Source: Micromonospora parathelypteridis (GTDB lineage Bacteria; Actinomycetota; Actinomycetes; Mycobacteriales; Micromonosporaceae). Taken from it: 64,000 bases of DNA. The stretch lies in contig NZ_JACHDP010000001.1 in NCBI RefSeq assembly GCF_014201145.1, positions 6,138,001-6,202,000 on the forward strand, in the 5' to 3' direction. Below are positions 7,607 through 40,556 of the stretch, piece after piece. Made by a program: the position numbers and the translations under genes. Under the pieces are notes generated by a model. It saw nothing but the letters and a program-made list of their open reading frames with translations, had not been told where the DNA came from and searched no databases. Position 1 is the stretch's first letter; each line of letters opens with the position of its first letter.

Positions 7607-7608
7607 TT

Positions 7609-9350: not shown

Positions 9351-9356
9351 CCCTGG

Positions 9357-11342: not shown

Positions 11343-13112
11343 TCAGGTCGCTCGGTCGGACGCCTGCCATCGGGCCACTTCCGCCAGATCACCCGACAGG
11401 TACTGGCGGCGGGCGAGCCAGCGTTGAACCTTGCCGCTGGAGGTTTTCGGCATGGTGCGCGGTTTGATGAGCACGATGGCGTACGGTGCCACGCTCGACT
11501 CCCGTGTGACGGAGCCGCGAATGCCATCGAGGATCGCCTGGTGTTGCGCGGCGGTCATGCCGGGATCGATCTCATAGACCACCACGAGTCGTTCGACGGC
11601 GCCGGCGTCGTCCTCCACCGCGAATGCGGCGCCACAGTCGCGCCGGATCCCGGCAACGTCGATCTCGCAGATCTGCTCGATGTCGATGGGATGGTAGTTG
11701 CGACCGTTCAGGACGATGAGGTCCTTTGTCCGGCCGGCAACGAAGAGATCGCCGTCCGCGACGAAGCCAAGGTCGCCGGTACGCAGGTAGGGTCCCTCGC
11801 CGGTGGTCGTCGTGGCGCCGAAGGTGTCGCCGGATTCGGTGGGGCGACGCCAGTAGCCGGCGGCAACGCTCGGTGAGTCGATCCAGATCTCGCCGACCGC
11901 GCCGGGTAGGACCGGCTCGCCGCTGGTGGGGTCGACGATCCTGATGCGCGTGTCCGGTCCGGGCGCGCCACACCCGACGATGTTCCTGGAGGGTTCTCCG
12001 GCCATCGCCGGTCGAGCAACCCGCTCCAGCTCAAGAGCCTCGCGGGCGACCGATACCGAACGCCACCCGCCCAGGCGGGCGCCGCCGGTCACCAGCAACG
12101 TCGCCTCGGCGAGCCCGTAGCAGGGGTAGATGGCTTCCGGCCGCAGGCCGTGCGGCTCGAAGATCTTGAGGAAGCGCTCGATCGTGTCCAGCCGGATCGG
12201 CTCCGCACCGGTGAAGCTCAGCTCGACCGAGGAGAGGTCGAGGCCGACCAGGTCGGCCTCCTTCACCCGCTTGACGCAGAGGTCGTAGGCGAAGTTCGGC
12301 CCGCCGGTGTGTGTGGTGCGGTATCGGGACACCACCTGCAACCAGGACATCGGGCGCCGCAGGAAGCTGATCGGGGACATGAACGTCGCGGGGATTCCGC
12401 TGGCTACGGGGGTCAGCAGACCTCCGATCAGCCCCATGTCGTGGTAAGGGGGCAGCCAGAAGGTCGCCGACGCTCCATCGTGCAGACCGAAGCTGCGGGT
12501 GATGTCCGCGGTGTTCGAGATCAGGTGGCCGTGGTTCAGCATCACGCCCCGCGGCAGCGAGGTGGACCCCGAGGTGTACTGAAGGACCGCGAGGGAGTCG
12601 GCGGACGTCGTCGGCGAGACGTCGTGCTCGGCGTAGCCCGCCAGATCGGTCGCGACGACGCGCGGCGTCGGGTCCACGGACGTGCTGGTCAACCAGTCGG
12701 CGATCGTGGGCGCGCCGTGCGACGTGGTCAGGACGAGGCTGGCTCCGGCGTCCTCGATGATGGCCATCAGCCGTGACATGGTGCGTGGTTGTCGCGTCGC
12801 ACCGGGCGGAAATGCCGGTATGGCCACCGCGCCGGAGTAGAGGCAGGCGAACAACGCGGTGAGATAGTCCAGCCCGGGCGGGTAGAGCAGCAGGGCACGC
12901 TCGGGTCGCCCGTTGGTGATGTCGAGGATCTTGATCGCCACCGCGCGGGCGCGCCGATTCAACTCGCCGTAGGTGATCTCCTCTGCGCGCCCGCCGTCGA
13001 GCACGAAGCGAAAGGCCAGGGCCTCTGCCGACTCGCGGGCTCGGGCGCGCAGAACGTGTGCGAAGCCATCCGACGAGCAGGACTGTCCGGCATGGACCGT
13101 TTCGGCCTGCAT
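11343..13112 (-). CDS. Fatty-acyl-AMP ligase (FAAL), ANL superfamily
   Basis: A 589-residue adenylate-forming enzyme. The P-loop-like A3 motif is LQYTSGSTSLPRGV (177-190), then YGLAEATL, RTGDLGF, GRTKDLIVLNGRNYHP, and the C-terminal catalytic lysine in PKTSSGK (about 561). The spacing and wording (YHDMGLIGG, AIPAFPPG, NGRNYHPIDIE) are those of FAALs, which make acyl-AMP and hand the chain to an ACP rather than to CoA. The start ATG at 13112 is four bases after the SnoaL-like stop, so it belongs to the SARP-SnoaL-FAAL operon. Its carrier is probably the ACP at 16523-16837. The chain length accepted cannot be read from sequence. Confidence 0.92.
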   Translation of the reverse strand: MQAETVHAGQSCSSDGFAHVLRARARESAEALAFRFVLDGGRAEEITYGELNRRARAVAIKILDITNGRPERALLLYPPGLDYLTALFACLYSGAVAIPAFPPGATRQPRTMSRLMAIIEDAGASLVLTTSHGAPTIADWLTSTSVDPTPRVVATDLAGYAEHDVSPTTSADSLAVLQYTSGSTSLPRGVMLNHGHLISNTADITRSFGLHDGASATFWLPPYHDMGLIGGLLTPVASGIPATFMSPISFLRRPMSWLQVVSRYRTTHTGGPNFAYDLCVKRVKEADLVGLDLSSVELSFTGAEPIRLDTIERFLKIFEPHGLRPEAIYPCYGLAEATLLVTGGARLGGWRSVSVAREALELERVARPAMAGEPSRNIVGCGAPGPDTRIRIVDPTSGEPVLPGAVGEIWIDSPSVAAGYWRRPTESGDTFGATTTTGEGPYLRTGDLGFVADGDLFVAGRTKDLIVLNGRNYHPIDIEQICEIDVAGIRRDCGAAFAVEDDAGAVERLVVVYEIDPGMTAAQHQAILDGIRGSVTRESSVAPYAIVLIKPRTMPKTSSGKVQRWLARRQYLSGDLAEVARWQASDRAT

Positions 13113-13116
13113 TCGG

Positions 13117-13524
13117 TCAGGCCTCCGCCATCCGGCGACCGACCAACCGGGCGAGGGAATGCGCGGCGGTCAGCGGTCGCACCAGCACGGTCACCTCGCT
13201 GATCAACCCGTCGTCCCCGGTGGCGAGGACGTCCATCCCCGTGATCGACTTGCCGTCGACCGTCGCGGTGAACTGGAGCGCGTGCCGGGGCGAGCCGACG
13301 TCCGGGCGAACTGCCTCGGTGCTGTGCCCGTCGAACTCCGCGGTGTAGGCGAAGTCCTCGAACACCTCCGCCAGGGCAGTGAGCAGCGGTGCCACGGCCG
13401 CCCTGCTCCGGTAGGGCTTCGGCATGACCGGGCTGTGGAAGGTGATGTCGGGCGAAAGGGTCGCAAGAATCGCAGGGACGTCCTTCTCCAACACCGTACG
13501 CCGGAAATCGTCGACCACTCCCAT
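13117..13524 (-). CDS. SnoaL-like / NTF2-fold protein
   Basis: A 135-residue protein of the NTF2-like superfamily: VDDFRRTVLEKDVPAILATLSPDITFHSPVMPKPYRSRAAV, then the sheet-rich ALQFTATVDGKSITGMDVLATGDDGLISEVTVLVRP. SnoaL-like proteins act as cyclases, isomerases, hydratases or hydrolases in polyketide and lipid pathways, and many have no known activity. The ATG at 13524 follows AGGGGA; an upstream in-frame ATG (13548) lacks one. It lies between the SARP and FAAL genes on the same strand with short gaps, so it is probably co-transcribed and part of the pathway. Which reaction it performs is unknown. Confidence 0.8.
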   Translation of the reverse strand: MGVVDDFRRTVLEKDVPAILATLSPDITFHSPVMPKPYRSRAAVAPLLTALAEVFEDFAYTAEFDGHSTEAVRPDVGSPRHALQFTATVDGKSITGMDVLATGDDGLISEVTVLVRPLTAAHSLARLVGRRMAEA

Positions 13525-13563
13525 GCAGTTCCCCTCACTGTGAAACATTCCCCGAAAAGCGGT

Positions 13564-14337: not shown

Positions 14338-14733
14338 CTTGCATTCCTCTCGCGGGACCGAGGGTTTCGGCCGCTAGGCAGCACCAATCGTCCGCCCACT
14401 GTAAGTGGTGGACGAAAAATTGCGTAACCTGACCGTAACCTCCCATTCGCCATTGGTTCGCGTGAGCGCCACCCGACACCATACACGAGTCCTAGAGAGC
14501 CAGAATCCATCGAGAACAAACGATGCAAAGCGTGATCAATGCGGCATCCAAATAGTGGGATCATGGTACGTATTGAGCTTGAGGTAACGGTCAGGCATGG
14601 TGCTGTCCACTGTGTTCCCGCTGGTTGGCCTGATCGTGCGGCAGGGTCGGATCCCAGTCGCCGTCGGCGCGGGTTGATTGGGCGAATTCGCCGAATCTCC
14701 CATTGTGGGGCGGGTTGGAACCAGGTGCCCGGC
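14338..14733. promoter_or_regulatory. Intergenic region upstream of the SARP gene
   Basis: A gap of about 396 bp between the aminotransferase stop and the SARP start, both genes on the minus strand. It is more AT-rich than its surroundings (14480-14600) and holds the 11-bp-spaced direct repeat described separately. No credible coding frame is visible. It should contain the SARP promoter and the terminator of the ACP2 operon, though no strong hairpin stands out. Confidence 0.5.
14423..14441. promoter_or_regulatory. Candidate SARP operator: 8-bp direct repeat, 11-bp spacing
   Basis: CGTAACCT occurs at 14423-14430 and again at 14434-14441, an exact repeat whose copies start 11 bp apart, one helical turn. 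This is the layout of SARP binding sites. It lies 86-104 bp before the SARP start codon, so autoregulation is suggested. The repeat reads on the plus strand while the gene is on the minus strand. Confidence 0.6.
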
Positions 14734-15915
14734 TCAGTGCACGCCGGCCTCGAGACGACTGGCGTCGCGACACACCCCGGACGGCGAGAGCGCGGCCAGC
14801 GTCTCGTCCAGCACCAGGAAGAAGCGCTTGACGTCCTCGGTCGTCAACTGCCCCATCGTCGCGACGATCGCCACTTCCTGGGTCACCGACGATGCCGGGT
14901 AGATGACCACCCCGGCGGCCGACATCGCGTCACAGAGCCTGGCCGCGGTCAACGGCGGCGGCACCTCGAACGCGGTGACCGAACTCGACCGGTCCGGCAC
15001 GGGCACCAACAGCCGTAGGCCCCGTCGGGACAGACCGTCCCGGACCTGCTCCGAGTGGGCGGCATAGCGGGCCGAACGCGCAGGGACGCCCTCGTCGAGA
15101 GCGAGCGCCAGAGCCTCGTCCAGAGCGAGGAGCAACTGCACGGCCGGCGTGAACAGCGGCGCGTCGTTACGCTGCTGAGCCAGGTAGTGCTGGTGCAGAT
15201 CAAGATAGAAGCTGCGCGGGCCGATCGCGGCGAGAGACTCGAAGCGCTCCGGCCGGGCGCAGACGAAGCTGAGGCCCGCCAATGCCTCGATGCACTTGTT
15301 CGCCGAACCGACCAGCCAGTCCACCGGGTCGTGGGCGAGGTCGAGTTGCTCCGCCCCGATGCTGCTGATGCCGTCCACGATGAACTCGGGACCGGCAGCT
15401 CGTACGATCCGGGCGATCGCCGGCACCGGATTCAGCACACCCAGGCTGGTCTCGTGCTGCACCATGGCGACATGGGTGACCGTCGGGCGGGCGTCGAGCG
15501 CCTGCTGCACCGCCACGGGATCGACTGCCCGGCCGACCGGTAGGCGCAGGGTGGCGCACCGCAGCTTGTGCACCGCCGCGATCTGCTCCAGCCGGTCCCC
15601 GAAGCGGCCGTTCGACACCACCAGCAGCTCGGCGTCCGCCGGTGTGACCGAGCAGAGCACCGCCTCTAGCGCGGCCGTCCCCGAACCGGTCAGCAGCACC
15701 GACGTGTACTGGTCCGCGCCGCCGCACAGCGACGCGAGCTTTCGTCGTACCTCGGCCAGGCAGCGCCGGGTCACTACCTCCCGATGCCCCAGGTCGGTAC
15801 GGGCGACGGCCTGGCGCACCGACGGCGCGACGGCCACCGGCCCCGGCGTCAGCAGCAACCGGCCGCCGGCCGGGATCCGGGCCGGTGTTCCCACGACCCG
15901 TGGCGCGTCCGTCAT
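14734..15915 (-). CDS. Class V aminotransferase, PhnW-like
   Basis: A 393-residue fold-type I PLP enzyme. The start LLLTPGPVAVAPSVRQAV, the GHREVV motif, SNGRFGDRLEQIA, HETSLGVLNPV, the PLP-contact VDGISSIGAEQ (D181) and SANKCIEALAGLSFV (Schiff-base K207) are the signature series of 2-aminoethylphosphonate:pyruvate transaminases (PhnW) and related AGXT-type enzymes. The ATG at 15915 overlaps the GDSL stop (ATGA). No phosphonate gene (PepM, Ppd, PhnX) is visible here, so it probably acts on an aldehyde or keto group of the ACP-bound or released acyl product. The amino donor is likely alanine by family analogy. Substrate is inferred, not shown. Confidence 0.88.
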   Translation of the reverse strand: MTDAPRVVGTPARIPAGGRLLLTPGPVAVAPSVRQAVARTDLGHREVVTRRCLAEVRRKLASLCGGADQYTSVLLTGSGTAALEAVLCSVTPADAELLVVSNGRFGDRLEQIAAVHKLRCATLRLPVGRAVDPVAVQQALDARPTVTHVAMVQHETSLGVLNPVPAIARIVRAAGPEFIVDGISSIGAEQLDLAHDPVDWLVGSANKCIEALAGLSFVCARPERFESLAAIGPRSFYLDLHQHYLAQQRNDAPLFTPAVQLLLALDEALALALDEGVPARSARYAAHSEQVRDGLSRRGLRLLVPVPDRSSSVTAFEVPPPLTAARLCDAMSAAGVVIYPASSVTQEVAIVATMGQLTTEDVKRFFLVLDETLAALSPSGVCRDASRLEAGVH

Positions 15916-16837: not shown

Positions 16838-17120
16838 CAATCAGCACCGACAGAGCCGACCCCGGCCTCCGCGCGAACCCGCCTGAGGCGGCCGGCGGCG
16901 ACCGGACCGAGGTCGGCGTACGACGTCGTCAACCCGCGGGCGGTGAAGAGCTCGCGCATGAGCGAGCGACGCACCGTCGCCCTTTCAAGCGGCGTCCCCA
17001 ACGTAACGGAGTCGGCTAATACGCTGCTTAGCGCGAACCTGCACGGCCCTATCCCGCCGTTGATCCGTCATCGCGAAGCCCCGCCCGCGCGGCTAGCCTG
17101 ATCGCCTTGGTCACTGATCA
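16838..17120. promoter_or_regulatory. Divergent promoter region between ACP2 and acyl dehydrogenase operons
   Basis: 283 bp with no gene. Between 17003 and 17033 there are three imperfect heptamers at 11-bp steps (CGTAACG, CGGCTAA, CTGCTTA) which loosely resemble the repeats at 14423, 22220 and 23331. TAATAC at 17019-17024 and TAGCCT further right are promoter-like hexamers. The motif similarity is weak. Confidence 0.35.
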
Positions 17121-18872: not shown

Positions 18873-18890
18873 TCACGACGGAGGCATCTC

Positions 18891-19547
18891 TTGCTCAACG
18901 AGGTTCTGAGGCCAATCGTCTCACCCGTTGCCCGCGCCCTGTACCGACCGGTGATCGAGGGCGCGGAGAACGTACCCCGGCGAGGGCCGGTCATCCTCGC
19001 CGCGAACCATCTGTCCTTCGCCGAGAACTGGCTCATCCCGATCGCGACCCCACGGTCGGTCCGCTACCTCGTCAAGATCGAGTACCTGCGCACGCCGTCG
19101 CTCGGTGGCCGGATGGCTGGGTGGTTCTTCAGCGAACTCGGGTTCGTGGGAGTCCAGCGCGGCGGACCCCGCGACGCCACGTCGTCGTCCCTGGAGGCGG
19201 CGATGGGAGTGCTCCGGGCCGGCCGGGCATTCGCCATCTACCCCGAGGGCACCCGCTCACTCGACGGCCGGCTGTACCGGGGCAAGACGGGTGTGGCACG
19301 GCTGTCGCTGGCCACCGGCGCCCCGGTCGTACCGATCGGGATCATCGGCACCGAGGTGATGCAACCTGTCGGTGTCCGCGTGCCCCGACGGCGTCCGGTG
19401 ACGGTCCGGTTCGGCACGCCGATGACGTTCGACGAGTACCGCGACTCGCAGGACCCGGCCGACTGGCGCACGGTGACGGACAAGATCATGGTGGCGATCT
19501 CGGAACTGTCCGGGCAGGAGTACGTGGACGCGTACCAGAAGCGCTGA
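18891..19547 (+). CDS. PlsC-type lysophospholipid acyltransferase with HX4E active site
   Basis: A 218-residue LPLAT-family protein. The acyl-acceptor motif IYPEGTRSLDGRLYRGKTG, the AP-PVVPIGIIGT segment and the first block LAANHLSFAENW are clear. In block I the canonical HX4D is HX4E (H40, E45). The aspartate normally forms the charge relay with the histidine, so glutamate there is unusual and may alter or abolish activity. The TTG start is supported by GGAGG eight bases before it. The gene follows the dehydrogenase by 18 bases, so they form an operon. It would transfer an acyl group from ACP or CoA to a (phospho)glycerol-like hydroxyl. A paralogue with the normal HX4D is at 27767. Confidence 0.85.
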   Translation: MLNEVLRPIVSPVARALYRPVIEGAENVPRRGPVILAANHLSFAENWLIPIATPRSVRYLVKIEYLRTPSLGGRMAGWFFSELGFVGVQRGGPRDATSSSLEAAMGVLRAGRAFAIYPEGTRSLDGRLYRGKTGVARLSLATGAPVVPIGIIGTEVMQPVGVRVPRRRPVTVRFGTPMTFDEYRDSQDPADWRTVTDKIMVAISELSGQEYVDAYQKR

Positions 19548-19555
19548 GTGGGGGA

Positions 19556-19587
19556 GGGCGGCGGCGGTCTTCGTTCCGCCGCCGCCC
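19556..19587. terminator. Bidirectional hairpin between convergent genes
   Basis: A perfect 12-bp GC stem (GGGCGGCGGCGG paired with CCGCCGCCGCCC) with an 8-base loop lies between the stops of the acyltransferase genes at 19547 and 19595. It is the obvious terminator for both, without a U-tract, as is usual in high-GC actinomycetes. Confidence 0.75.
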
Positions 19588-19594
19588 CTTCCTC

Positions 19595-20971
19595 TCAGCG
19601 TCCGCTGCTCGACGGCTGGGCCGGCACCGCGTCAGCGACGGGCTTCTCCTCAACCATCGACACCGTCTCGGCGGTCGGATCAGCCTCGACCAGCGGCTCC
19701 GCCAGCACCTCGGGATCGTTGTGCCTTGCCGGCCCGGGCTTGCGGACGGACTCCTTCACCGTCGGTGGTTTCGGCCGCAGGAGTCGTGCCGCGGGCAACT
19801 CGACGAACCGGTAGAGCAGCCACGCGACCGCGGTGCAGAGCGCGAAGAGACAGACGATGACTGCCAGCTCGACCGGCAGCGGCGGACGCTCCGCGGTGGA
19901 GCCGATCACGCCGGCCCCCACCAGGAGATCCTTCACGACCGGGCCGAGCGGCAGGAACACCAGCAGGTGCGTCAGATAGAAGCTGTAGGAGATCTCGCCG
20001 AACCAGACCAGCGGCTTCGCGTGCAGGACCGAGCGGCGGCCCTTCGCATCGGCGGTGGCCAGGGCGGCGAGCAGTATCGCGACCGGTATCAGCAGCGCGC
20101 CTACCCGCTGGATCCGTTCGGGGAGCAGCAGCGTCACCGAGAAGACTGCCGCGAGGATGGCGAGACAGCCCCCGATGCCGGGGCCGCGCCAGGTGCCGCG
20201 ACGCAGGAGCAGACCCACCGCCACGCCGACCGTGAAGTCCAGGGCGCGGTGCAGCGGCAGCACCATGGTGAACCAGTACGCGAAGTCTCCGCCGCTCGGT
20301 GCGGTGTTGAAGAACGGCGGGCCGGCATCCTTGACCAGGAACATGTTGCCCACGAGGAACGGCAGTGCGCAGGCGAGCAGGGTGGCTACGACGATGACCC
20401 GACGCAGGGCCCGGTCGCCGAGCGGCACCAGGGCGGCGAAGAGCACCGGGAAGATGAGGTAGAAGAAGGCCTCTGCGCTCAACGACCACGACACCGGGTT
20501 GAGCCCGTAGATGACGCTCTGCTGCGGCACCCAGCCCTGGACCATGAACATGTTCGACAGCACGTTCTTCCAGCCGGGCGGCATGCCCAGCACCACGAGC
20601 ACCAGGGCCGCCACGGCGGTGGTGGTCGCGTAGATCGGGTAGATCCGCGACACCCGACGCCGCCAGAAGACCCGGGCGGTGTCGCCGTTGCGGACGACCC
20701 AGGTGAGCACGATGCCGCTCATCAGGAAGAACGCGTTCATCCCGCCGTACGAGATCACGGCGACCCACTCCGGGATGGCGTGGGCCACGAACTCGATCCC
20801 ACCGCCCTCGACCGCGACGAGTTGCAGCGCCGTGTAGTGGACCATGAACGCCATCGCGGCGAGGATGCCGCGCAGCGCGGTCAGCGAGTCCAGGCGCACC
20901 ACCTTGGTGCCGCGCGCGGCCTTCGCCGCCTCCACGACCGTGTTCGGCACACCGGTGACCGCGCCGCTCAC
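19595..20971 (-). CDS. Acyltransferase family 3 (OafA/NodX-like) membrane O-acyltransferase
   Basis: A 458-residue integral membrane protein with about ten helices. It begins LDSLTALRGILAAMAFMVHY, the LxxLRG start and helix-1 histidine of family 3 acyltransferases; RRRVSRIYPIY, VSWSLSAEAFFYLIFPV and ISYSFYLTHLL are further family marks. A charged cytoplasmic tail of about 60 residues follows the last helix. The GTG start overlaps the amidohydrolase stop (GTGA). These enzymes O-acylate sugars, macrolides or lipids using acyl-CoA at the cytoplasmic face. Here it may decorate or complete the product of the surrounding locus. Confidence 0.88.
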   Translation of the reverse strand: MSGAVTGVPNTVVEAAKAARGTKVVRLDSLTALRGILAAMAFMVHYTALQLVAVEGGGIEFVAHAIPEWVAVISYGGMNAFFLMSGIVLTWVVRNGDTARVFWRRRVSRIYPIYATTTAVAALVLVVLGMPPGWKNVLSNMFMVQGWVPQQSVIYGLNPVSWSLSAEAFFYLIFPVLFAALVPLGDRALRRVIVVATLLACALPFLVGNMFLVKDAGPPFFNTAPSGGDFAYWFTMVLPLHRALDFTVGVAVGLLLRRGTWRGPGIGGCLAILAAVFSVTLLLPERIQRVGALLIPVAILLAALATADAKGRRSVLHAKPLVWFGEISYSFYLTHLLVFLPLGPVVKDLLVGAGVIGSTAERPPLPVELAVIVCLFALCTAVAWLLYRFVELPAARLLRPKPPTVKESVRKPGPARHNDPEVLAEPLVEADPTAETVSMVEEKPVADAVPAQPSSSGR

Positions 20972-22128
20972 GGGCGGACCTTCGCCACCCGGGAGCCCAT
21001 CAGCTCGGCGAAGTTGCCGGCGAAGAAGCGGTCCTTGACCTTCTCGTCGGAGCCGGCGAGGAACTTCTCCGCCGCGCCGAGCGGGTCCGTGCCGCCCTCG
21101 GTATGCGGGAAGTCCGTGCCGAACATGAACAGGTCCGGGCCGGCCTGCTCGATGAGCCAGTCCAGTGGCTCGACGAAGAACGCCGTGAACTTCACCTGGC
21201 GGCGGACGAAGTCCGACGGGCGCATCGACAACGCGCGCAGGTCGGGCTCGGTCCGGCCGAACGCCATCTGCGCGATGTCCAACTGCTTCATCCAGGGCGC
21301 CACCCACAGGCCGCCCTGCTCGATGCAGCCGCAGCGCAACGTCGGGAAGCGGTCGAAGACACCGTCGAGCACGAGCATCGTCAGGAACGTCTGCGGCGGG
21401 ACCTGCATCCCCATGTAGTCCTTGGACCGGATGTTCTCGCCGCCGCCGAGGAAGTCGGCCGGCGGGGTCCGCCCGTTGTTGCGGTACGCGTCCGGCACCA
21501 GAGCGCCGCCCGTACAGACGTGCAGGAAGAACGGCATGTCGGCGTCCTGGAGGGTGGCCCAGAAGCGGTCGTACGCGGGGTGCGCCGGAGAGAACTCCGG
21601 CGGTGCGACGGAGGGCACGATGACTCCGTCGCAGCCGAGCTCGATCGCGGCCTCCAGCTCGGCAACGCTGCGCTCCGGATCGGCGAGGGGTACGAATCCG
21701 ACGGGCAGCAGCCGCCGGTCGACCGAACACCAGTCGACGATCGCGCGGTTCAGGGCGCGGGTGCCCCCGTACATCAGCTCGGGGTGTTCGTAGTACCAGA
21801 ACTGTTCACTCGCGACCGTGCTGAAGACCAACTGCGCCGAGAATCCGAGCAGGTCCAGGGCGCGGCTGCGTTCGCCGGCGTCGGTGCCGCCGAAGCTCTC
21901 CCAGCCCTTCATGGTCATGAGAGTCTGCTCGGCCTGCGCACGGCGTTCCTGGTCGTCGTAGCGGTGCCGGATGTCGGTCTCGGCGCGGCGCGCCCGCTGC
22001 ACCTTGTCCGCGCCAAAGGAGCGGAGAAGCTCGCGTGCGGAGGGCTCGGCGTACTCGGTGAGCCAGCCTTCCCGCTCCATCACGTGGCTGTCGGCGTCGT
22101 AGTAGACCCGACCTTCTGCGTACGGCAT
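20968..22128 (-). CDS. Amidohydrolase-2 family metal-dependent hydrolase/decarboxylase
   Basis: A 386-residue TIM-barrel amidohydrolase. The N-terminal DADSHVME is the HxH-type metal motif variant (D-x-D-x-H) seen in the ACMSD/LigW-like subgroup. Further metal-site candidates are the histidine in MPFFLHVCTGG and the C-terminal FMFGTDFPHTEGG aspartate. It contains LLGFSAQLVFSTVASEQFW and GFVPLADPERSVAELE, typical of this subgroup, whose members hydrolyse C-N or C-C bonds or decarboxylate. AAGGAG precedes the ATG by about nine bases. It is coupled to the OafA-type acyltransferase and lies downstream of the repeat at 22220-22237. Its substrate is unknown. Confidence 0.85.
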   Translation of the reverse strand: MPYAEGRVYYDADSHVMEREGWLTEYAEPSARELLRSFGADKVQRARRAETDIRHRYDDQERRAQAEQTLMTMKGWESFGGTDAGERSRALDLLGFSAQLVFSTVASEQFWYYEHPELMYGGTRALNRAIVDWCSVDRRLLPVGFVPLADPERSVAELEAAIELGCDGVIVPSVAPPEFSPAHPAYDRFWATLQDADMPFFLHVCTGGALVPDAYRNNGRTPPADFLGGGENIRSKDYMGMQVPPQTFLTMLVLDGVFDRFPTLRCGCIEQGGLWVAPWMKQLDIAQMAFGRTEPDLRALSMRPSDFVRRQVKFTAFFVEPLDWLIEQAGPDLFMFGTDFPHTEGGTDPLGAAEKFLAGSDEKVKDRFFAGNFAELMGSRVAKVRP

Positions 22129-22219
22129 CAGGCACTCTCCTTCAACTCGAACTCCCGGTGGACGTTAGAGCGGATCGACACCCTTCGGTGTACTGGCGCA
22201 ACGCAGCGGCTGCGGCCGT

Positions 22220-22237
22220 GTTAGCGACCGGTTAGCA
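22220..22237 (-). promoter_or_regulatory. Direct repeat, 11-bp spacing, upstream of amidohydrolase operon
   Basis: GTTAGCG (22220-22226) and GTTAGCA (22231-22237), read on the minus strand as TGCTAAC and CGCTAAC, start 11 bp apart and share six bases. The site lies about 92-109 bp before the amidohydrolase ATG. It overlaps the end of the lipid-kinase gene, whose stop codon is part of one copy, so coding constraint could explain part of the match. Confidence 0.4.
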
Positions 22238-23168
22238 GCGGGATCGGCAGGGCGGCCGGTACGGACCGGAACGTCGCCTCCGTCCGCATCCCCAGGAAGT
22301 CGCCGTCCACCTGGACGGCGATCGGACGGCTGGACCGCACCGTCAGGTCGTGCTGGTCCTCGGCGCTGACGACGTCCGGGCCGGTCAGCGACGCCCGGGC
22401 GGTCATCATCTGCCGCACCACCCGCAGTGTCGGCAGCGTGCCGAGTGACGTCAGGCCGAGCACGTCGAGCCCCCGGTCGAACGAGGCCCTGGGGGAGGGC
22501 GCCACCGGCCGGTCCCCGAGGAAGGTCCACGGTGCGGAGTTGCAGACGAACGCCATGAAGATGGACTCGCCGTGCGCCCCGCCCGTCCCGTCGAAGGTCA
22601 ACGCCGGATGCCGGCGGTCGGTCCGGTAGCGCTGCCGCAGGAGCAGGGTGATGTAGGCCGCGGCGGGCATCCGCGGCGGGCGGACGCCAGCGCCGAAGCG
22701 CAGCCGCTCGGCCTCACGCACGATCTCCGCGTCGAGTCCGAAGGAGCACACGAAGGCGAACCAGCGGTCCCCGACGATGCCGAGGCCCAGCCGCCGACTT
22801 CCACCCGCGGTCACCGCGTCGCGCACCAGACGGGCCGCGTCGTTGATGCGGTTGGGCAGGCCGATCGAACGGGCGAAGACGTTCGTGCCACCGGCGGGCA
22901 GCGGGGCGAAGACCGGTACGTCGTCAGCCACACCGTCGGCGAGCAGGCCGTTGACCGTCTCGTTCGCCGCACCGTCGCCGGACGCGGTGAGCACGACGTC
23001 GTACCCCTCGCGGCGCGCCGCACGGGCCAGCTCCGCCGCGTGGCCACGCCGCGTGGTGTCCACGACGTCCAGCTTCAGTCCGGCGAGGATGTCGGTGAGC
23101 TCGTCGCGGGCAGAGGGGTTCATCCGCGTGGCCTGCGGGTTGACGATCAGCAGGCATCGGGGCGGCAT
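22221..23168 (-). CDS. Diacylglycerol/sphingosine kinase-like lipid kinase
   Basis: A 315-residue protein of the DAGK catalytic superfamily. It starts CLLIVNPQATRMN, has the nucleotide loop SGDGAANETVNGL (63-75), then PLPAGGTNVFARSIGLP and a C-terminal beta domain with VQVDGDFLGMRTEATFRSVPAAL. The usual loop is GGDGTxNE; serine for the first glycine and alanine for the threonine are departures, but the Asp and the NE are kept. Family members phosphorylate the hydroxyl of diacylglycerol, sphingoid bases or related lipids with ATP. It diverges from the KASIII operon and is same-strand with the amidohydrolase operon. A role in phosphorylating the lipid product or acceptor is inferred. Confidence 0.87.
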   Translation of the reverse strand: MPPRCLLIVNPQATRMNPSARDELTDILAGLKLDVVDTTRRGHAAELARAARREGYDVVLTASGDGAANETVNGLLADGVADDVPVFAPLPAGGTNVFARSIGLPNRINDAARLVRDAVTAGGSRRLGLGIVGDRWFAFVCSFGLDAEIVREAERLRFGAGVRPPRMPAAAYITLLLRQRYRTDRRHPALTFDGTGGAHGESIFMAFVCNSAPWTFLGDRPVAPSPRASFDRGLDVLGLTSLGTLPTLRVVRQMMTARASLTGPDVVSAEDQHDLTVRSSRPIAVQVDGDFLGMRTEATFRSVPAALPIPLLTGR

Positions 23169-23442
23169 GATCGGGCGACCTCCTTCTGCGCCGGCACGAC
23201 AGGTTGCTGGCGAGGCGCCACTGTAGAGCCACCGGTGCTCGCTCGGGAGAACGCTGAAGTGGGTCTTTAGCGAGCCGTTGTGGCCGCGTCAGCGGCAGGT
23301 TTGCCGAGGGTCCGGCGGGACCGGGACGGTCGCTAAAACCCCGCTAAACCCATGCCTTCGGGCGGTGTCCACACCCCTGTCGAACGGTCTGACCCGTGCA
23401 ATCATCGGCACCTCTACCGCCGCGAGACGAAGGACGGGTCGG
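23169..23442. promoter_or_regulatory. Divergent promoter region, lipid kinase / KASIII operon
   Basis: 274 bp without a gene between the lipid-kinase start and the KASIII start. It contains TTTAGCG at 23266-23272 (CGCTAAA on the minus strand, toward the kinase) and the CGCTAAA direct repeat at 23331-23348 (toward KASIII). Confidence 0.5.
23331..23348 (+). promoter_or_regulatory. Candidate SARP operator: CGCTAAA direct repeat, 11-bp spacing
   Basis: CGCTAAA at 23331-23337 and 23342-23348 is an exact heptamer repeat whose copies start 11 bp apart, about 95-112 bp before the KASIII start. Heptamers at this spacing are the known SARP-box layout. A third, inverted copy lies at 23266-23272. Confidence 0.55.
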
Positions 23443-24420
23443 ATGGCGATTGGCATCATCGATATGGGGTCCTACGTCCCCGATCGCGTTGTGACGAACG
23501 ACGACATCTGTGCGTGGAGCGGCGCCACCCACGAGTGGATCACCAACCTGACCGGCATCAACGAGCGCCGGTACGCAGAGCCCGAGCAGACCACCTCGGA
23601 CCTGGCGGTCCTCGCCGCGGCGCCCCTGGTCGCCGACCCCTCCGTACAGGAACGGCTTGCCTGGTTGTTCCTCAGCACCAACTCGCCGGACCAGCCGTCC
23701 CCGGCGACCGCCGCCGTGGTGCAGGCGAAGCTGGGCCTGCCCGCGCTGCCGGCCTTCGACGTCGGCGTCGCCTGCGCTGGGGTGATCTTCCACATGGCCC
23801 TGGCGAACGCGCTGATGCGCGACGACGGCGGACAGGTCGCACTGGCGATCGGCGCCGACAAGGTGTCCTCCATCGTGGACCGAACCGATCGACGCACCGT
23901 CGCGCTCTTCGGCGACGGCGCCGCGGCGCTGCTCCTCGGCTCGGTGCCGGACGGCTACGGGATCCGCAGCACCAGCCTGCTCACCGATGGCGCGCGCTGG
24001 GAGAACATCGGCATCTACGCGGGCGGCAGCCGGCTGCCGCTGACGCCGGAACGGTACGCCGAGGGCGGCCAGTTCACCCGGATGGACGGGCGGGCGGTCG
24101 CGGCGTTCGTCCTGCAGACGCTGCCGAAGGTGATCGACTCGGCGCTGGAGAAGGCTGGCGTGGGCCTGCACGACATCGACCGGTTCGTGTTCCACCAGGC
24201 GAACGGGCGTCTGCTCGCCGGGCTCGGCAAGAAGCTCGGCATCGATCCGGACCGGGTGCCGACGACGGTGAGCAGATTCGGCAACTCCGGCGTCGCATCC
24301 CTGCCCGTCACGCTGGTGCAGGCCAACCAGGAGCGTCCCTTCCAGCGTGGCGAGAAGCTGCTGCTCGCCGCGGTGGGCGCGGGGATGACCGCCGGCGCGG
24401 CCGTCCTCACCTGGTACTGA
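23443..24420 (+). CDS. 3-oxoacyl-ACP synthase III (KASIII/FabH-like)
   Basis: A 325-residue condensing enzyme. The catalytic triad is readable: C111 in FDVGVACAGVIF, H251 in FVFHQANGRL and N281 in RFGNSGVASLP. EWITNLTGINERRYAEPEQ is the FabH-like N-terminal arginine region. The ATG at 23443 is used; the frame is open further left but has no codon bias or RBS there. It heads an operon of KASIII, SDR, F420-type oxidoreductase, MFS and LPLAT with overlaps or short gaps. It would start a chain from an acyl-CoA (or transfer an acyl unit) onto a malonyl-ACP or other acceptor. Divergent KASIII enzymes also make ester or C-C bonds in secondary metabolism. Confidence 0.9.
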   Translation: MAIGIIDMGSYVPDRVVTNDDICAWSGATHEWITNLTGINERRYAEPEQTTSDLAVLAAAPLVADPSVQERLAWLFLSTNSPDQPSPATAAVVQAKLGLPALPAFDVGVACAGVIFHMALANALMRDDGGQVALAIGADKVSSIVDRTDRRTVALFGDGAAALLLGSVPDGYGIRSTSLLTDGARWENIGIYAGGSRLPLTPERYAEGGQFTRMDGRAVAAFVLQTLPKVIDSALEKAGVGLHDIDRFVFHQANGRLLAGLGKKLGIDPDRVPTTVSRFGNSGVASLPVTLVQANQERPFQRGEKLLLAAVGAGMTAGAAVLTWY

Positions 24421-24445
24421 CCGTTCGGAAGGCTGCGGAGATCGG

Positions 24446-25186
24446 ATGCGTCTGAAAGGCAAGAACGCCGTCATCACCGGCGGGAACCGTGGGCTGGGCC
24501 GGGCCATCGCCCGGCACTTCCTGGCTGAGGGCGCGACAGTGACCTGTGCCTCCCGTACCGGCAAGGGTTGGGAGGAACTGCATCGGGACGCCCCCGACCG
24601 GTCGTTCCACGTGCCGGTCGAGGTCAGCGATCCCGCGTCGGTCGAGCAACTCGTCGCGACCGCCGCGGAGCGCATGGGTGGCATCGACGTCCTGGTCGCG
24701 AACGCCGCCGTACGGCACGACGGGCGGGTCGAGCGGCTGGCGCCGGAGGCGTGGACGGAGACCCTCACCGTCAGTCTCACCGGGGTCTTCCTCTGCACCC
24801 GCGCGGTGGTCCCGGTGATGGCCGGCAACGGCGGCGGTTGCATCATCAACATCTCGTCCGGCCTGGCCACCCGCGTGGCCGTCGGCACGGCGGCGTACAG
24901 CGCGGCCAAGGCCGGCGTCGAGTCGCTCACCCGGACCAGCGCCATCGAACTCGGCCCGAAGGGCATCAAGGTCAACTGCATCTCGCCGGGGCTGATCGAC
25001 AGCGGGATGAGCGAGGCTCTGCGGCCGAACGTCGCGCTCTGGGAGATGTACACCAAACGCATCGCCATGGGCCGAGCCGGGCATGAGGACGAGGTCGCCA
25101 GCGCGGCGGTCTTCCTCGCCTCGGACGAGAGCTCGTACGTGAACGGACACGTGCTCGAAGTGAATGGAGGACTGCTATGGGCGTGA
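24446..25186 (+). CDS. Short-chain dehydrogenase/reductase (FabG-like)
   Basis: A 246-residue classical SDR. The dinucleotide motif is ITGGNRGLGRAIA (TGxxxGxG), then VANAAV (NAG variant) and the catalytic Ser in INISSGL. YSAAKAGVESLTR supplies Tyr and Lys, and the C-terminal SSYVNGHVLEVNGG is typical of FabG-like enzymes. It should reduce a 3-ketoacyl thioester with NADPH, the logical next step after the KASIII just upstream (25-bp gap). Its last 10 bases overlap the F420-type oxidoreductase gene. Confidence 0.9.
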   Translation: MRLKGKNAVITGGNRGLGRAIARHFLAEGATVTCASRTGKGWEELHRDAPDRSFHVPVEVSDPASVEQLVATAAERMGGIDVLVANAAVRHDGRVERLAPEAWTETLTVSLTGVFLCTRAVVPVMAGNGGGCIINISSGLATRVAVGTAAYSAAKAGVESLTRTSAIELGPKGIKVNCISPGLIDSGMSEALRPNVALWEMYTKRIAMGRAGHEDEVASAAVFLASDESSYVNGHVLEVNGGLLWA

Positions 25187-26067
25187 GGCCCTTCCGGTTC
25201 GGGGTGAGCCTGCACCACAACTGCGGCGCCGAGGAGTGGGCGAAGAAGTGCCGCCGGGCCGAGGAGTTGGGCTACGACGTCATTCTCATTCCCGACCATC
25301 TCCACATGCCCGCGCCGTTCCCGTCCATCGTCGCGGCCGCGTCGGTCACCGAGCGCGTGCTGTTCGGTACGTTCGTCCTGAACGCCGCCTTCTGGAACCC
25401 ACGCCTGTTGGAGCGGGAGATCGCCACGACGCACCGGCTCACCGGGGGGCGCCTGGAGGTCGGCGTCGGCACCGGCTATGCGAAGGCCGAGTTCGACGAG
25501 GCGGAGATCCCCTTCGAGTCACCCGGTCGGCGGGTACGGCAACTCGACACCGTGGTCCAGCGGCTGACGGCCTCGTTCGCCGACCGGTCACAGTGGTCGG
25601 ACTGCGCGGCGGCGCCCCGTCTGATGATCGGGGGCAGCGGCGACAAGGTGCTCGGCATCGCCGCTCGACACGCCGACATCGTCGGCCTCAGCCCGGTGGT
25701 CCGGGTCGACACGCCGGAGAAGTGGCGGGCGCTTCCCGCCGAGACGGTCGAGGAGCGGTCGCAGTACCTGCGCAAGCAGGCCGGTGACCGGTTCGACGAC
25801 ATCGAGGTCAACCTCATGATCCCCGCGGTGGTGCTGGCCGAGGACCGGCAGGCCGCGGCCGCGTTCGCCCAGCAGACCCGGACCCCGTACCTCACCCTGG
25901 AGCAGGTCCTGGAGGCTCCGGCGGGCCTGATCGGTACGCCGGAGGAGATCGCCGACCAACTGGTGCAGCGCCGCGAGCGGTACGGGATCTCCTACATCAC
26001 CGTCCACGAGGAGTTCATGGAGCCGCTCGCTGCGGCCATGGCTGTTCTGGAGGACCGAAGCAGTTGA
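25177..26067 (+). CDS. LLM-class F420-dependent oxidoreductase
   Basis: A 296-residue luciferase-like TIM-barrel protein of the actinobacterial F420 type: PFRFGVSLHHNCGAEEWAKKCRRAEELGYDVILIPDHLHMPAPFPSI split over strands 1-2, VLFGTFVLNAAFWNPRLLEREIATTHRLTGGRLEVGVGTGY, and MIGGSGDKVLGIAARHADIVGL. The GVGTGY and GGSG loops are cofactor-binding marks. It should carry out a two-electron hydride transfer with F420H2 (or FMN), reducing or oxidising a C=C, imine or hydroxyl. It overlaps the SDR by 10 bases and the MFS gene by four, so it is part of the same operon. Confidence 0.87.
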   Translation: MGVRPFRFGVSLHHNCGAEEWAKKCRRAEELGYDVILIPDHLHMPAPFPSIVAAASVTERVLFGTFVLNAAFWNPRLLEREIATTHRLTGGRLEVGVGTGYAKAEFDEAEIPFESPGRRVRQLDTVVQRLTASFADRSQWSDCAAAPRLMIGGSGDKVLGIAARHADIVGLSPVVRVDTPEKWRALPAETVEERSQYLRKQAGDRFDDIEVNLMIPAVVLAEDRQAAAAFAQQTRTPYLTLEQVLEAPAGLIGTPEEIADQLVQRRERYGISYITVHEEFMEPLAAAMAVLEDRSS

Positions 26068-27722
26068 CCGCGCTCCGGGGGAATCCCCGTTACATCCTCC
26101 TGGCGGTGTCGCTCGCATCGTTCATGACCTCGCTCGACATGACGATCATCAACATCGCCATGCCGAGCGTGGTCCGCGATCTCAACGCCTCGTTGACCAC
26201 CGTGGCGTGGGCGGCCAACGCCTACCTCATCGTGGTGGCCGTGCTGGTCATCGTGACCGGCCGGCTGGGAGACCTGTACGGACCCCGCCGGCTGTTCGTC
26301 ATGGGTTCGTTGCTGTTCACGCTCGCCTCGGCGGCGTGCGGGTTCGCGCAGAGCGAGGGTCAGCTCATCGCCGCCCGGGCGGTCCAGGGCCTCGGTGCCG
26401 CCCTGGTATATCCGCAGTCCATGTCGATCATCGTGGCCACCTTCCCGCCGCAGCGTCGCGGCGGGGCAATGGGCCTGTGGACGGCGGTCTCGGCACTGGC
26501 CTCGATCCTCGGACCGGTGATCGGCGGCACCCTCACCAGCTTCCTGAGCTGGCGTTACGTCTTCTTCCTGAACCTCCCGGTAGGCGTGATCATGATCGCG
26601 CTCTGCCTGGCGGCGGTGCCGCCGCTGAAACGCGGCCGGCGGCAACCGCTGCATCTGCAGGCCGTCATCCTCAGCACAGCCGCCCTGGTCTGCCTCACGT
26701 TCGGCCTGGTGGAGGGCGACCGGTTCGAGTGGGGGGTGATCTGGGGGCCGCTCAGCATTCCGCTGTTGCTGGTGCTGAGCGTCGTCCTGGCGGTGGCCTT
26801 CGTCGTGCTGCAGAAGAAGCGCCAGGACCGTACGCCGTTGGTGCCGTTCGAGCTGTTCGAGCTGACCAACTTCCGGCTCATGATCATCGTGACCACGATC
26901 CTGTCGATCGGCATCGTCGGCACCTCCGTACCGCTGTCGCTGTACGTACAGGCCGCCCTGGGCTACAGCCCGCTGAAGGTCGGGCTCGTCATGACCCCGA
27001 TGTTCCTCAGCATGGCGTTCGTCGCTCCCTTCGCCGGCAAGCTCAGCGACCGGCTCAGCGCCCGGTACGTGCTGATGACCGGGCTCAGCCTCTACGCCGC
27101 CGGGATGGCACTGGTGGTGTGGGTCTCGAGCACCACGACGCCCTGGCAGCACTTCGTCCCCGGCCTCGTCGTGGCCGGCGTCGGCGCCGGCTGCACGTTC
27201 GCCCCGATGAACTCCATCGCGATGCACGACGTGCGACCACCGCAGGCGGGGGCCGCCGCCGCGCTGATGATGACCGCCCGCCAACTCGCCTCGGTCTTCG
27301 CCGCCGCCGTGCCCATCGCCCTGCTCCAGGGTCAGCTTGTCCGGCGAATGCCGGAGGAGGCCGCCGCGCTGGCGCCGACCCTGCCGGCCGGTGTCGGCGA
27401 ACCGTTCGTGAATGCCTTTCGGCAGGCGTCGGCGTCCGGTCCGGATCAGACGGTGAGCGAGGTACTGGACGCGGTTCGTCGCAGCGGAGCGTCACCGGAC
27501 GCGGTCGAGGCCGCCGGCCGGGCGGCGCACACCGTCTACAATGACAGTTTCGTGACGGCGCTACGACCGGCGTTGATAGTGCCGATCGGGCTGTTGCTCG
27601 TCGGCGTCGTATTCGCGTCCAGGGTGGTGCCCGCCGACCGGAGAGCGCCGGCCGCAGCGGACGATAACGATCATTCTGGCGTCGCCGAAGAGACCGACGC
27701 GCTGCCCCGGCCGGTAAGCTGA
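26064..27722 (+). CDS. MFS transporter, DHA2 (14-TM) drug/product exporter
   Basis: A 552-residue membrane protein with fourteen predicted helices. Marks of the DHA2 family are MTSLDMTIINIAMPSV in helix 1, GRLGDLYGPRRLF (motif A), ARAVQGLGAALVYPQSMSII, and LGPVIGGTL with the following WRYVFFLNLPVG (motif C region). TTG start with TTGA overlapping the preceding stop. DHA2 proteins export antibiotics, lipids and dyes with proton antiport and often provide self-resistance in biosynthetic clusters. Its place inside the KASIII operon makes it the likely exporter of the product or of a lipid intermediate. Confidence 0.9.
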   Translation: MTALRGNPRYILLAVSLASFMTSLDMTIINIAMPSVVRDLNASLTTVAWAANAYLIVVAVLVIVTGRLGDLYGPRRLFVMGSLLFTLASAACGFAQSEGQLIAARAVQGLGAALVYPQSMSIIVATFPPQRRGGAMGLWTAVSALASILGPVIGGTLTSFLSWRYVFFLNLPVGVIMIALCLAAVPPLKRGRRQPLHLQAVILSTAALVCLTFGLVEGDRFEWGVIWGPLSIPLLLVLSVVLAVAFVVLQKKRQDRTPLVPFELFELTNFRLMIIVTTILSIGIVGTSVPLSLYVQAALGYSPLKVGLVMTPMFLSMAFVAPFAGKLSDRLSARYVLMTGLSLYAAGMALVVWVSSTTTPWQHFVPGLVVAGVGAGCTFAPMNSIAMHDVRPPQAGAAAALMMTARQLASVFAAAVPIALLQGQLVRRMPEEAAALAPTLPAGVGEPFVNAFRQASASGPDQTVSEVLDAVRRSGASPDAVEAAGRAAHTVYNDSFVTALRPALIVPIGLLLVGVVFASRVVPADRRAPAAADDNDHSGVAEETDALPRPVS

Positions 27723-27766
27723 TCATCGATGTTGGATCGGCGCGACCGGTGTGATGGGAGGCGGGA

Positions 27767-28525
27767 ATGTTCTACTGGGCATTGAAGTACACGATCGGTT
27801 CAACCGTGAAGCTGATCTTCCGTCCCGAGGTGGCGGGCCGCGAGAACCTGCCGGAGAACGGCGCTGCCCTGCTGGTCGGAAATCACCCCTCCTTCTCGGA
27901 TTCCGTGTTCCTCTCGGCGGTCATGCGTCGCAAGGTCGTCTACATCGCGAAGCTCGAATACTTCACCGGCACCGGGCTCAAGGGCCGGCTGCGGCGAATG
28001 GTGATCGGCGGGATGGGAAACATCCCGGTCGACCGGGCCGGCGGACGCAAGGCGGCCTCGACGCTCGGCACCGCGCAGGAGGTGCTGGAGCAGGGTGGCC
28101 TGGTCTGCATGTACCCGGAGGGGACGCGGCCACCGGACAACCGGCTCTACCGGGGCAAGACCGGGGCGGCCCGGATCGCGCTCGCCACCGGCGTACCGGT
28201 CATCCCGATCGCCATGCTGAACACCTACGAGATCCAGCCTCCGGGCAAGCTGATCCCGAAGGTCATGAGGGCCAGGATGGCCGTCGGTACGCCGATCGAC
28301 CTGACCCCCTTCCGGGACCTCCCGTCCGGCGTCGCCTCGCGTGCCCTGACCGATGAGATCATGCGACGACTCCAAGCCCTCTCCGGTCAGGACTACGTGC
28401 ACATGTACGCGCAGGCCGCCAGGCAGAAGTTCGAGAGCGGCGACCGGCCGCCGACCTGCCCGGAGGGCCCTCCGGACACTGGTAGCGGTGTCGTGACGCC
28501 GACCGGGGACGCCGCGGTCAGCTGA
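27767..28525 (+). CDS. PlsC-type lysophospholipid acyltransferase
   Basis: A 252-residue LPLAT with the canonical HX4D in LVGNHPSFSDSVFL and the acceptor motif YPEGTRPPDNRLYRGKTGAARIALATGVPVIPI. It shares the RLYRGKTG-AR--LATG-PV-PI block and the LSGQ-YV ending with the enzyme at 18891, so the two are paralogues. GGAGG lies seven bases before the ATG. It should acylate the sn-2-like position of a lysophospholipid or a similar hydroxyl. It is the last gene of the KASIII operon and runs convergently, by 8 bp, into the HAD phosphatase gene. A Pro/Gly/Thr-rich tail of about 30 residues is probably disordered. Confidence 0.88.
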   Translation: MFYWALKYTIGSTVKLIFRPEVAGRENLPENGAALLVGNHPSFSDSVFLSAVMRRKVVYIAKLEYFTGTGLKGRLRRMVIGGMGNIPVDRAGGRKAASTLGTAQEVLEQGGLVCMYPEGTRPPDNRLYRGKTGAARIALATGVPVIPIAMLNTYEIQPPGKLIPKVMRARMAVGTPIDLTPFRDLPSGVASRALTDEIMRRLQALSGQDYVHMYAQAARQKFESGDRPPTCPEGPPDTGSGVVTPTGDAAVS

Positions 28526-29216
28526 CCGGTCCCGATGCCTTGTCCTCCCGGGAGAGGCGGCCACCCTTCCAGGTCACCGTGGTCAGCCGGGCACCGAGCA
28601 GCCGTCGTGCCCTCGCGACCTGGCGCGCGTTCGCGTTGACCAGCACGGCCCGCTCCGCGGCGGCAAGGACGGGAAGATCCGACAGCGAGTCGCTGTAGGC
28701 CACCCGCCAGGGCGGCGTCACTCCCTGGGCGGCGAGCTGCACCACCTTGGTCGCCCCGTAGTTGTGCACAATCAGCTTCGGCCCACGGATGTGCGAGGCC
28801 ACGAGCTCGACCTCGGCGAGGCCGATCGCGTCGAGCACCGCGCGCGCCAGGGTGTGCTCGCACCCGGTGACCACGACGACCCGATCGCCCGCGTCGAGGT
28901 GGGTGCGGATCATCTCCAGGCCGGGCGCGATGATCCGCGCGGGCTCCGCGCCGAGGTCCGCGCCGAAACGCCCAAGCTCCGCCCGCAACTGGTCCGCGCT
29001 GCGGCCCAACAGACCGATTCGGCTCATCCACCACGCCGCCCGTGGACGGTAGGCGGGAATGGCGACCATGGGTGCGAGGAGAACAGCCAGGATGACGGCG
29101 ACCGGCAATCGAGCGCCCGCGAAAACAATGCGTCGCATGAAAAGCCCGAATGCGTCCCCGCGCAGCAGTACGCCGTCGAAATCGAAGATGACGGTGGCGG
29201 CGGAAGGTGCCCTCAT
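28518..29216 (-). CDS. HAD-IB-like phosphatase, probable lipid phosphatase
   Basis: A 232-residue HAD-superfamily protein. The nucleophile motif is VIFDFDGVLLRGD, motif II VVVVTGCEHTLA, and motif IV VAYSDSLSDLPVLAAAERAVLVNA. A hydrophobic stretch (LPVAVILAVLLAPMVAIPAY) in the cap looks membrane-associated, as in PgpC-like and SerB-type HAD-IB phosphatases linked to phospholipid metabolism. Its 3' end overlaps that of the PlsC-like gene by 8 bp. With a lipid kinase and two acyltransferases in the same locus, dephosphorylation of an acyl-glycerophosphate-like intermediate is a reasonable inference. Confidence 0.8.
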   Translation of the reverse strand: MRAPSAATVIFDFDGVLLRGDAFGLFMRRIVFAGARLPVAVILAVLLAPMVAIPAYRPRAAWWMSRIGLLGRSADQLRAELGRFGADLGAEPARIIAPGLEMIRTHLDAGDRVVVVTGCEHTLARAVLDAIGLAEVELVASHIRGPKLIVHNYGATKVVQLAAQGVTPPWRVAYSDSLSDLPVLAAAERAVLVNANARQVARARRLLGARLTTVTWKGGRLSREDKASGPVS

Positions 29217-40552: not shown

Positions 40553-40556
40553 ACCA

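Follow-up and report, generated by a model that had tools for sequence, protein, structure and literature searches.

A Micromonospora gene island that may pass a lipopeptide-type starter to PlsC-type acyltransferases

What does Micromonospora parathelypteridis make with a gene island that opens like a lipopeptide pathway and goes on with enzymes of the membrane-lipid type? The island lies in a one-contig genome of 7.01 Mb, within the 64-kb stretch that was analysed as a whole (the window; G000:C1:6138001-6202000), and its 16 densely packed genes, delimited by gene calling, cover about 17 kb from a fatty acyl-AMP ligase (FAAL) to PlsC2, the second of two PlsC-type acyltransferases (window 11343-28525). 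We give an even chance to the answer that this is an accessory secondary-metabolite island, in which a lipopeptide-type starter would feed PlsC-type acyltransferases to yield a tailored and exported lipid. The island itself is a real, discrete and probably jointly regulated cluster built from known parts. An earlier note on this DNA had proposed one biosynthetic locus without a modular polyketide synthase (PKS) or non-ribosomal peptide synthetase (NRPS), and this is borne out by gain and loss as a unit, by a shared promoter repeat, by two island genes that M. arborensis has on contigs listed with equal length and by the lack of an NRPS condensation domain in the island genes and in five neighbours to the left (locus L109), the rest of the genome not having been searched for one.

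Borders, loss and distribution of the island

The borders were set by Micromonospora genomes that do not carry the locus. The HAD phosphatase gene next to PlsC2 is present in 17 of the 160 Micromonospora genomes, M. parathelypteridis included, and seven of the other 16 were fetched for comparison (L150-L156). Without the island, it stands beside a MaoC-like gene in L150-L153 (identified by Pfam for L150 and L152, by eye for L151 and L153), and it has other neighbours in L154, L155 and L156. In L150 (genome G267), only 568 bp lie between the parts that correspond to window 8196-11319 and 28481-29269, and in L151 (G197) only 541 bp between those that correspond to 7595-11322 and 28510-29290, with the MaoC-like gene in the gap in both; the left flank is retained in these two loci and not in L152 and L153. 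Since L150 and L151 join both flanks without the island, the 17 kb between them, with edges at about window 11320 and 28510, form a unit, and the HAD gene belongs to the backbone. Thus, the island is a discrete 16-gene unit, and the phosphatase, previously counted as a member of the cluster, has to be taken out of it, as it adjoins the island-free MaoC sites of L150-L153.

Fragments of the island end persist at three of the four sites without the unit (L150, L152 and L153). In L152, the HAD gene adjoins 437 bp of the PlsC2 end (84%) as well as 37 bp of the end of the major facilitator superfamily (MFS) exporter gene (95%), in L153 it adjoins 258 bp of the PlsC2 end (80%), and in L150, 43 bp of the MFS end (84%) touch the final 45 bp of PlsC2 (91%), while L151 has 16 bp of the PlsC2 end alone, a match near chance (E 0.009). 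The MFS piece of L150 reached E 4e-8 against E 2e-4 for the best unrelated control among 24 control segments; two controls, L152 and L153, gave better matches, because the MaoC neighbour and the end sequence are common to them. Because such end fragments remain at island-free sites, that clade must once have had the island, in full or at least with its MFS-PlsC2 end, and then lost it. Insertion into an empty site had been considered and was replaced by loss in sister species after the fragments were found. The island shows no foreign base composition (0.689 against 0.693 and 0.696). The MaoC dehydratase gene at the fragment sites, a kind of gene also seen near the KASIII-SDR pair of L172/L173, may or may not be a former island member; the relative that M. 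parathelypteridis has of it, elsewhere in the genome, is 45% identical.

Among the matches listed, with two candidates scored per genome, an island-long DNA match occurred in the own genome only and in none of the other 159 Micromonospora genomes. Single genes reach further: M. arborensis has orthologues of the pyridoxal phosphate (PLP) enzyme (94%) and of the condensing enzyme KASIII (97%), the longest contig being given as 476953 for both, and an orthologue of the PLP enzyme (91%) occurs in Micromonospora sp. NPDC005215. Seven of 300 genomes of the family, the own one included, held matches to the PLP enzyme at E 1e-60, the other six being 44-49% identical. The acyl dehydrogenase found matches in 15 of the 160 genus genomes, again including the own one, and its nearest other relative (53%) stands directly behind an acyl carrier protein (ACP) gene in L103. 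Six of the 14 other dehydrogenase-bearing genomes were fetched, 18-20 kb each; a homologue of the island's AMP ligase or carrier protein was nearby in five of these loci, and a homologue of its PLP enzyme or kinase in none of the six. Plasmid records, searched at E 1e-40, contained only homologues below 60% of the oxygenase (2 records) and the dehydrogenase (31 records). As to the scattering of homologues over close relatives that the earlier note had raised, relatives of PlsC and of the diacylglycerol kinase (DAGK) are indeed scattered, but they are separate genes beside the island copies, and the island as such holds together.

A separate row of genes was observed in L172 (15351-19281, genome G205), where ACP-like, ketosynthase-like, short-chain dehydrogenase/reductase (SDR), KASIII and SDR genes follow each other, as read partly by eye, with a SARP gene and a MaoC-like gene nearby (L172/L173, the latter by eye). 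Among the DNA matches listed for the island pair, that of its KASIII-SDR pair is the longest colinear one.

Regulation and enzyme assignments

Strands and gaps divide the genes into seven transcription units, the HAD gene included, in agreement with the six or seven short operons noted before. On the minus strand these are SARP-SnoaL-FAAL, ACP-GDSL-PLP enzyme, oxygenase-OafA-type acyltransferase and the kinase, on the plus strand dehydrogenase-PlsC1 and KASIII-SDR-F420 enzyme-MFS-PlsC2. The island is probably under one SARP regulator, and the repeats shared by its promoters fit one regulon. Classical SARP sites are described as 11-bp units (PMC5930380), and the correspondingly spaced repeat STAAN7STAA occurs four times in exact form in 64 kb against 0.11 expected, with none of 100 shuffles reaching four, odds that are flattering because the pattern was taken from the promoters before counting. 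Three of the four exact copies precede island units (SARP, oxygenase and KASIII); the fourth, at window 36627-36641, is outside the island, flanked by a MarR and a cupin gene, and is probably due to chance. A two-copy repeat before the SARP gene exceeded all 300 resamplings, the corresponding values being about 0.10 before KASIII, 0.23 before the oxygenase and 0.99 before the dehydrogenase, and triple SARP repeats were not above resampled sequence.

All 17 genes listed in the earlier note are present at the coordinates of Table 1 as open frames with high GC at third codon positions (GC3; gene calling), each with the expected Pfam family above its curated cut-off, so that Pfam and NCBIfam agree with the list at family level. 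The start that it had assumed, from FAAL, free ACP and dehydrogenase, is likewise found complete by profile match. FAAL models scored 399-361 bits, all below the curated cut-offs of what are narrow single subfamilies, and were outscored by an NRPS/PKS model, which matched at its N-terminal part and stayed under its own cut-off; the protein shares 59-64% identity with the FAALs encoded in six loci (L001-L006) from Streptomyces/Saccharothrix. The free ACP (37.4 bits for PF00550) carries its attachment serine in a DSV motif, and KASIII keeps the Cys-His-Asn residues in an alignment to a FabH structure.

The phospholipid-type acyltransferases and the lipid kinase are confirmed as well (PF01553 twice, DAGK_cat), with changes in their motifs. 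PlsC1 has HX4E, where all 12 copies examined from other genomes have HX4D, whereas PlsC2 has both the HX4D and EGTR motifs intact and, at the DNA level, an identity of about 70% to a gene that is widespread in the genus. The own genome has ten PF01553 loci, two of them in the island, and the pattern caught eight of the ten, with Asp in six (including PlsC2), Glu in PlsC1 and another residue in one. The kinase (74.1 bits for PF00781 against a cut-off of 23.6) reads SGDGA, where nine of nine other Micromonospora copies examined read GGDGT; among the matches listed it is 40-45% identical to a near-universal kinase of the genus (159 of 160 genomes), and a second copy lies at 2.17 Mb of the own genome. 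Its Gly-to-Ser change presumably resembles the situation in sphingosine kinases and would fit an amino-alcohol lipid acceptor.

The 'amidohydrolase' (87.1 bits for PF04909 against a cut-off of 26.4) fits a dinuclear oxygenase of the PtmU3 type. Its candidate ligands D13, H15, H203, E270, D339 and H342 (DxH, H, E, DxxH), all kept in L137 and L138, pair by motif with D11, H13, H197, E252, D320 and H323 of LynB7, an oxygenase with six metal ligands related to PtmU3 (PMC10127204). H203, E270, D339 and H342 were also aligned with PtmU3, with D13 and H15 outside the alignment and paired by eye. PtmU3, described as a nonheme diiron monooxygenase (PMC10127204) that works without an AibH1-type subunit (PMC10401708), is among the nearest solved structures. 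PtmU3, AibH2 and LynB7 have the PF04909 fold and six metal ligands in common (PMC10127204, PMC10811679, PMC10401708), and the island protein differs in its distance from PtmU3, about a quarter of the residues being identical (24-27%). The hydrolase of the earlier note thus gives way to a candidate oxygenase, since the six ligands are those described for LynB7; a thioesterase reading was dropped on account of the monooxygenase nature of PtmU3.

The PhnW-like enzyme resembles the 2-aminoethylphosphonate transaminase PhnW in its family and in the PLP lysine (Lys207, a residue that is Lys in all 120 listed homologues). It differs in scoring below the NCBIfam cut-offs (TIGR03301, 310.3 bits against 360.8; TIGR02326, 234.1 against 400.8) and in having Ile350 in place of a conserved Arg, which is found by alignment in three solved PhnW sequences and in 116 of the 120 listed homologues, the others having Gly (two) or, in the two island orthologues, Ile. 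These orthologues from two other species (91-94% identical) keep both the Ile and the catalytic Lys, and identity drops to 42-50% for the 118 listed homologues that do not belong to the island. EDKx5NS is the motif of PepM; it was absent from all three PF13714 proteins above cut-off in the own genome, a fourth, below cut-off, not having been read. Because the Arg is replaced and a PepM-type protein was not found, the amination proposed earlier is unproven, and Ile350 argues against an ordinary PhnW-type enzyme as its agent; a phosphonate lipid product was dropped, given the lack of the PepM motif in the three PF13714 proteins above cut-off. Elsewhere, one relative of the enzyme (L111) lies in a stretch with the PepM motif, and others stand beside, or are fused to, apparent phosphonopyruvate decarboxylases (by eye).

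Table 1. Genes and promoter repeats of the island and its right flank, in window positions; repeat-to-start distances depend on gene starts predicted by our own gene calling.
Feature	Position	Strand	Basis or remark
FAAL, fatty acyl-AMP ligase, 589 aa	11343..13112	-	PF00501 AMP-binding
SnoaL-like protein, 135 aa	13117..13524	-	PF12680 (SnoaL_2)
SARP-type activator, 257 aa	13564..14337	-	Trans_reg_C + BTAD
11-bp-spaced direct repeat	14424..14438	+ (opposite to gene)	86 bp before SARP start
PhnW-like class V PLP enzyme	14734..15915	-	Aminotran_5; best NCBIfam model PhnW-AepZ, below cut-off
GDSL-type hydrolase, 201 aa	15912..16517	-	PF13472 (Lipase_GDSL_2)
Free acyl carrier protein, 100 aa	16523..16825	-	PF00550 (PP-binding), DSV serine motif
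Imperfect repeat copy, 1 mismatch	17015..17030	+	90 bp before ACAD start
Acyl-CoA-dehydrogenase-family acyl dehydrogenase (ACAD), 583 aa	17121..18872	+	PF02771/02770/00441
PlsC1 acyltransferase, HX4E not HX4D	18891..19547	+	PF01553
OafA-type membrane acyltransferase, 458 aa	19595..20971	-	PF01757 (Acyl_transf_3)
'Amidohydrolase', read as PtmU3-like dinuclear oxygenase	20968..22128	-	PF04909 (Amidohydro_2)
11-bp-spaced direct repeat	22221..22235	-	92 bp before oxygenase start
DAGK-like lipid kinase, SGDGA motif	22221..23168	-	PF00781 (DAGK_cat)
11-bp-spaced direct repeat	23333..23347	+	95 bp before KASIII start
KASIII condensing enzyme	23443..24420	+	PF08545/PF08541; PRK09352 above cut-off
FabG-like SDR	24446..25186	+	Family profile match
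F420-type luciferase-like oxidoreductase	25177..26067	+	Bac_luciferase; NCBIfam TIGR03621 above cut-off
MFS exporter, DHA2 / EmrB type	26064..27722	+	TIGR00711 above cut-off
PlsC2 acyltransferase, last gene of unit	27767..28525	+	PF01553; HX4D + EGTR kept
HAD-IB phosphatase, flanking chromosomal gene outside unit	28518..29216	-	HAD profile + genome comparison

Several other loci lie in or beside the window. To the left of the island, a separate cluster occupies L109 10075-19895 (G000:C1:6128075-6137895) and window 519-3807, with a 1282-aa A-PCP-hexapeptide protein, an epimerase-type dehydrogenase, an asparagine synthase, a 670-aa KASIII protein, a ketosynthase piece, an ACP and a large LuxR regulator; the island-free L150 also has an A-PCP-hexapeptide-type protein and a LuxR gene. 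On the other side, a trpB-trpA pair that follows a GntR regulator gene (window 31317-33298) is retained in L150, and window 37497-48720 holds an ordinary polysaccharide locus, in which glycoside hydrolases of the GH95 and GH67 types are accompanied by a LacI regulator and by ABC transporter genes of the sugar type.

A proposed pathway and its rivals

In the pathway that we propose, FAAL would activate a free fatty acid and load it onto the free ACP, and the ACAD homologue would desaturate the chain bound there, a role also proposed for its counterparts in lipopeptide pathways of the friulimicin type. A beta-hydroxyacyl chain may be supplied or extended by KASIII together with the SDR. The PtmU3-like enzyme would hydroxylate an acyl thioester using O2, and the F420/flavin enzyme could make a further redox change. 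Because the island has no NRPS condensation domain, a PlsC-type transfer is the likeliest next step, in which these acyltransferases would hand the ACP-bound chain on to a small polar acceptor; finishing the head group might fall to the lipid kinase together with the OafA-type acyltransferase. The GDSL enzyme may edit or release the product, the MFS pump would export it, and the PLP enzyme would contribute an altered chemistry, other than ordinary alanine or aminoethylphosphonate transamination. A narrower version of this proposal, which we put forward only tentatively, is a FAAL:ACP:PlsC assembly line that turns a desaturated, O2-hydroxylated, ACP-bound acid into a phosphorylatable lipid natural product, with the Arg-less enzyme of PhnW fold catalysing a new reaction.

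Several points weigh against the exported-lipid proposal. Everything after the loading of the ACP is inferred, and the order of steps is guesswork. The changed catalytic motifs of PlsC1 (HX4E), the kinase (SGDGA) and the PLP enzyme (without its Arg) could mean lost activity. Furthermore, no Rieske gene is found among the island genes, though one stands beside AibH2-type members. The repeat pattern was read from these promoters and counted afterwards, and a search of the whole window with one mismatch gave 7 against 4.4 expected, which is not above chance, so that the repeat before the dehydrogenase rests on its position.

An unlikely alternative is that FAAL, ACP and dehydrogenase provide a lipopeptide starter for an NRPS encoded elsewhere, the rest of the island modifying or exporting the peptide. 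The three genes indeed make up a lipopeptide initiation cassette as described (PMC9113097), and AMP-binding domains occur in long frames near 5.92-5.94 Mb as well as in the 1282-aa protein at 6.13 Mb. However, this protein is an A-PCP-hexapeptide type, and a 1305-aa protein of the same architecture stands at the matching place in the island-free L150; also, the search that yielded no condensation domain in the island and its five L109 neighbours did not cover the NRPS region at 5.9 Mb.

We consider it still less probable that the island remodels the membrane, its product being a structural lipid (an aminolipid or an altered phosphatidic acid) and not an exported metabolite. Both PlsC genes and the kinase come from families that occur elsewhere in the genome and the genus, and known aminolipid pathways are described as typically ending with PlsC-like acyltransferases (PMC11631085). 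Against this stand the restriction of island-long matches to one of 160 genomes and the presence of SARP control, an MFS pump and extra redox enzymes. These three features are typical of exported secondary metabolites.

That the island is not one pathway, but two or three unrelated gene sets side by side, appears improbable. Its several transcription units on both strands would allow it, as would the KASIII-SDR relatives in another cluster (L172) and the FAAL and ACAD relatives in other cluster types, but the 11-bp-spaced repeats common to units across the island, its absence as a block at sister sites that retain the island end and the listing of the M. arborensis PLP enzyme and KASIII with contigs of equal length speak for a single unit. 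Finally, a decaying cluster without a product, suggested by the changed motifs and by the loss of most of the island in sister species, is hardly credible with 16 of 16 frames open, a GC3 of 0.887 against 0.895 for other window genes and a PLP enzyme so closely conserved, Ile and catalytic Lys included, in two other species.

If the exported-lipid proposal holds, ACP-bound fatty acids of lipopeptide starters can also pass to enzymes of the membrane-lipid type, giving lipid natural products of a class that may escape cluster searches based on PKS and NRPS modules. It would also raise biochemical questions about a PhnW-fold enzyme without its arginine and about an amidohydrolase-family oxygenase acting on acyl thioesters, and the promoter repeats suggest a direct route to switching the island on.

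Comparison with known systems

No described pathway with this gene set was found in the literature, characterised-cluster collections not being covered, which accords within that scope with the earlier note's statement that none with the exact set was known. Literature searches returned nothing that joins FAAL to a diacylglycerol kinase or glycerol-3-phosphate acyltransferase, and nothing on M. arborensis gene clusters or on the valanimycin kinase; FAAL together with PlsC led to a review of aminolipids. From that source, the two-step pathways of OlsB/OlsA and SalA are reminiscent of the island in that a PlsC-family O-acyltransferase, the typical kind for known aminolipids, transfers a chain to a polar head group (PMC11631085). 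They consist of two acyl-transfer steps and, as described there, do not involve a SARP-controlled island that combines FAAL, ACP and ACAD with a kinase, an oxygenase and a pump (PMC11631085).

Similar in some of their genes are the loci of Saccharothrix sp. ST-888, S. sparsogenes and S. physcomitrii (L001, L004 and L005), whose FAALs are among the nearest found (61-64%) and are followed, as the third gene behind, by an ACAD homologue (40-41%). They differ by MoaD-like, ferritin-like and second ligase genes (by eye) not present in the island, and no PlsC, DAGK or KASIII homologue is among the genes called in their approximately 21.7 kb. All three have two FAAL-type ligases each (phmmer), and MoaD-like, ferritin-like and two dehydrogenase-type proteins were seen by eye in L001 and L004.

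A further parallel is offered by the starter cassettes of friulimicin, laspartomycin, taromycin and malacidin, in which FAAL, a free-standing ACP and an ACAD homologue initiate the lipopeptide, the friulimicin-type dehydrogenases being proposed to use acids bound to FAAL or ACP, without coenzyme A (CoA) intermediates (PMC9113097). In those cassettes the acceptor is the C(III) domain of an NRPS, whereas the island has in its place PlsC-type acyltransferases, a lipid kinase and an OafA-type acyltransferase.

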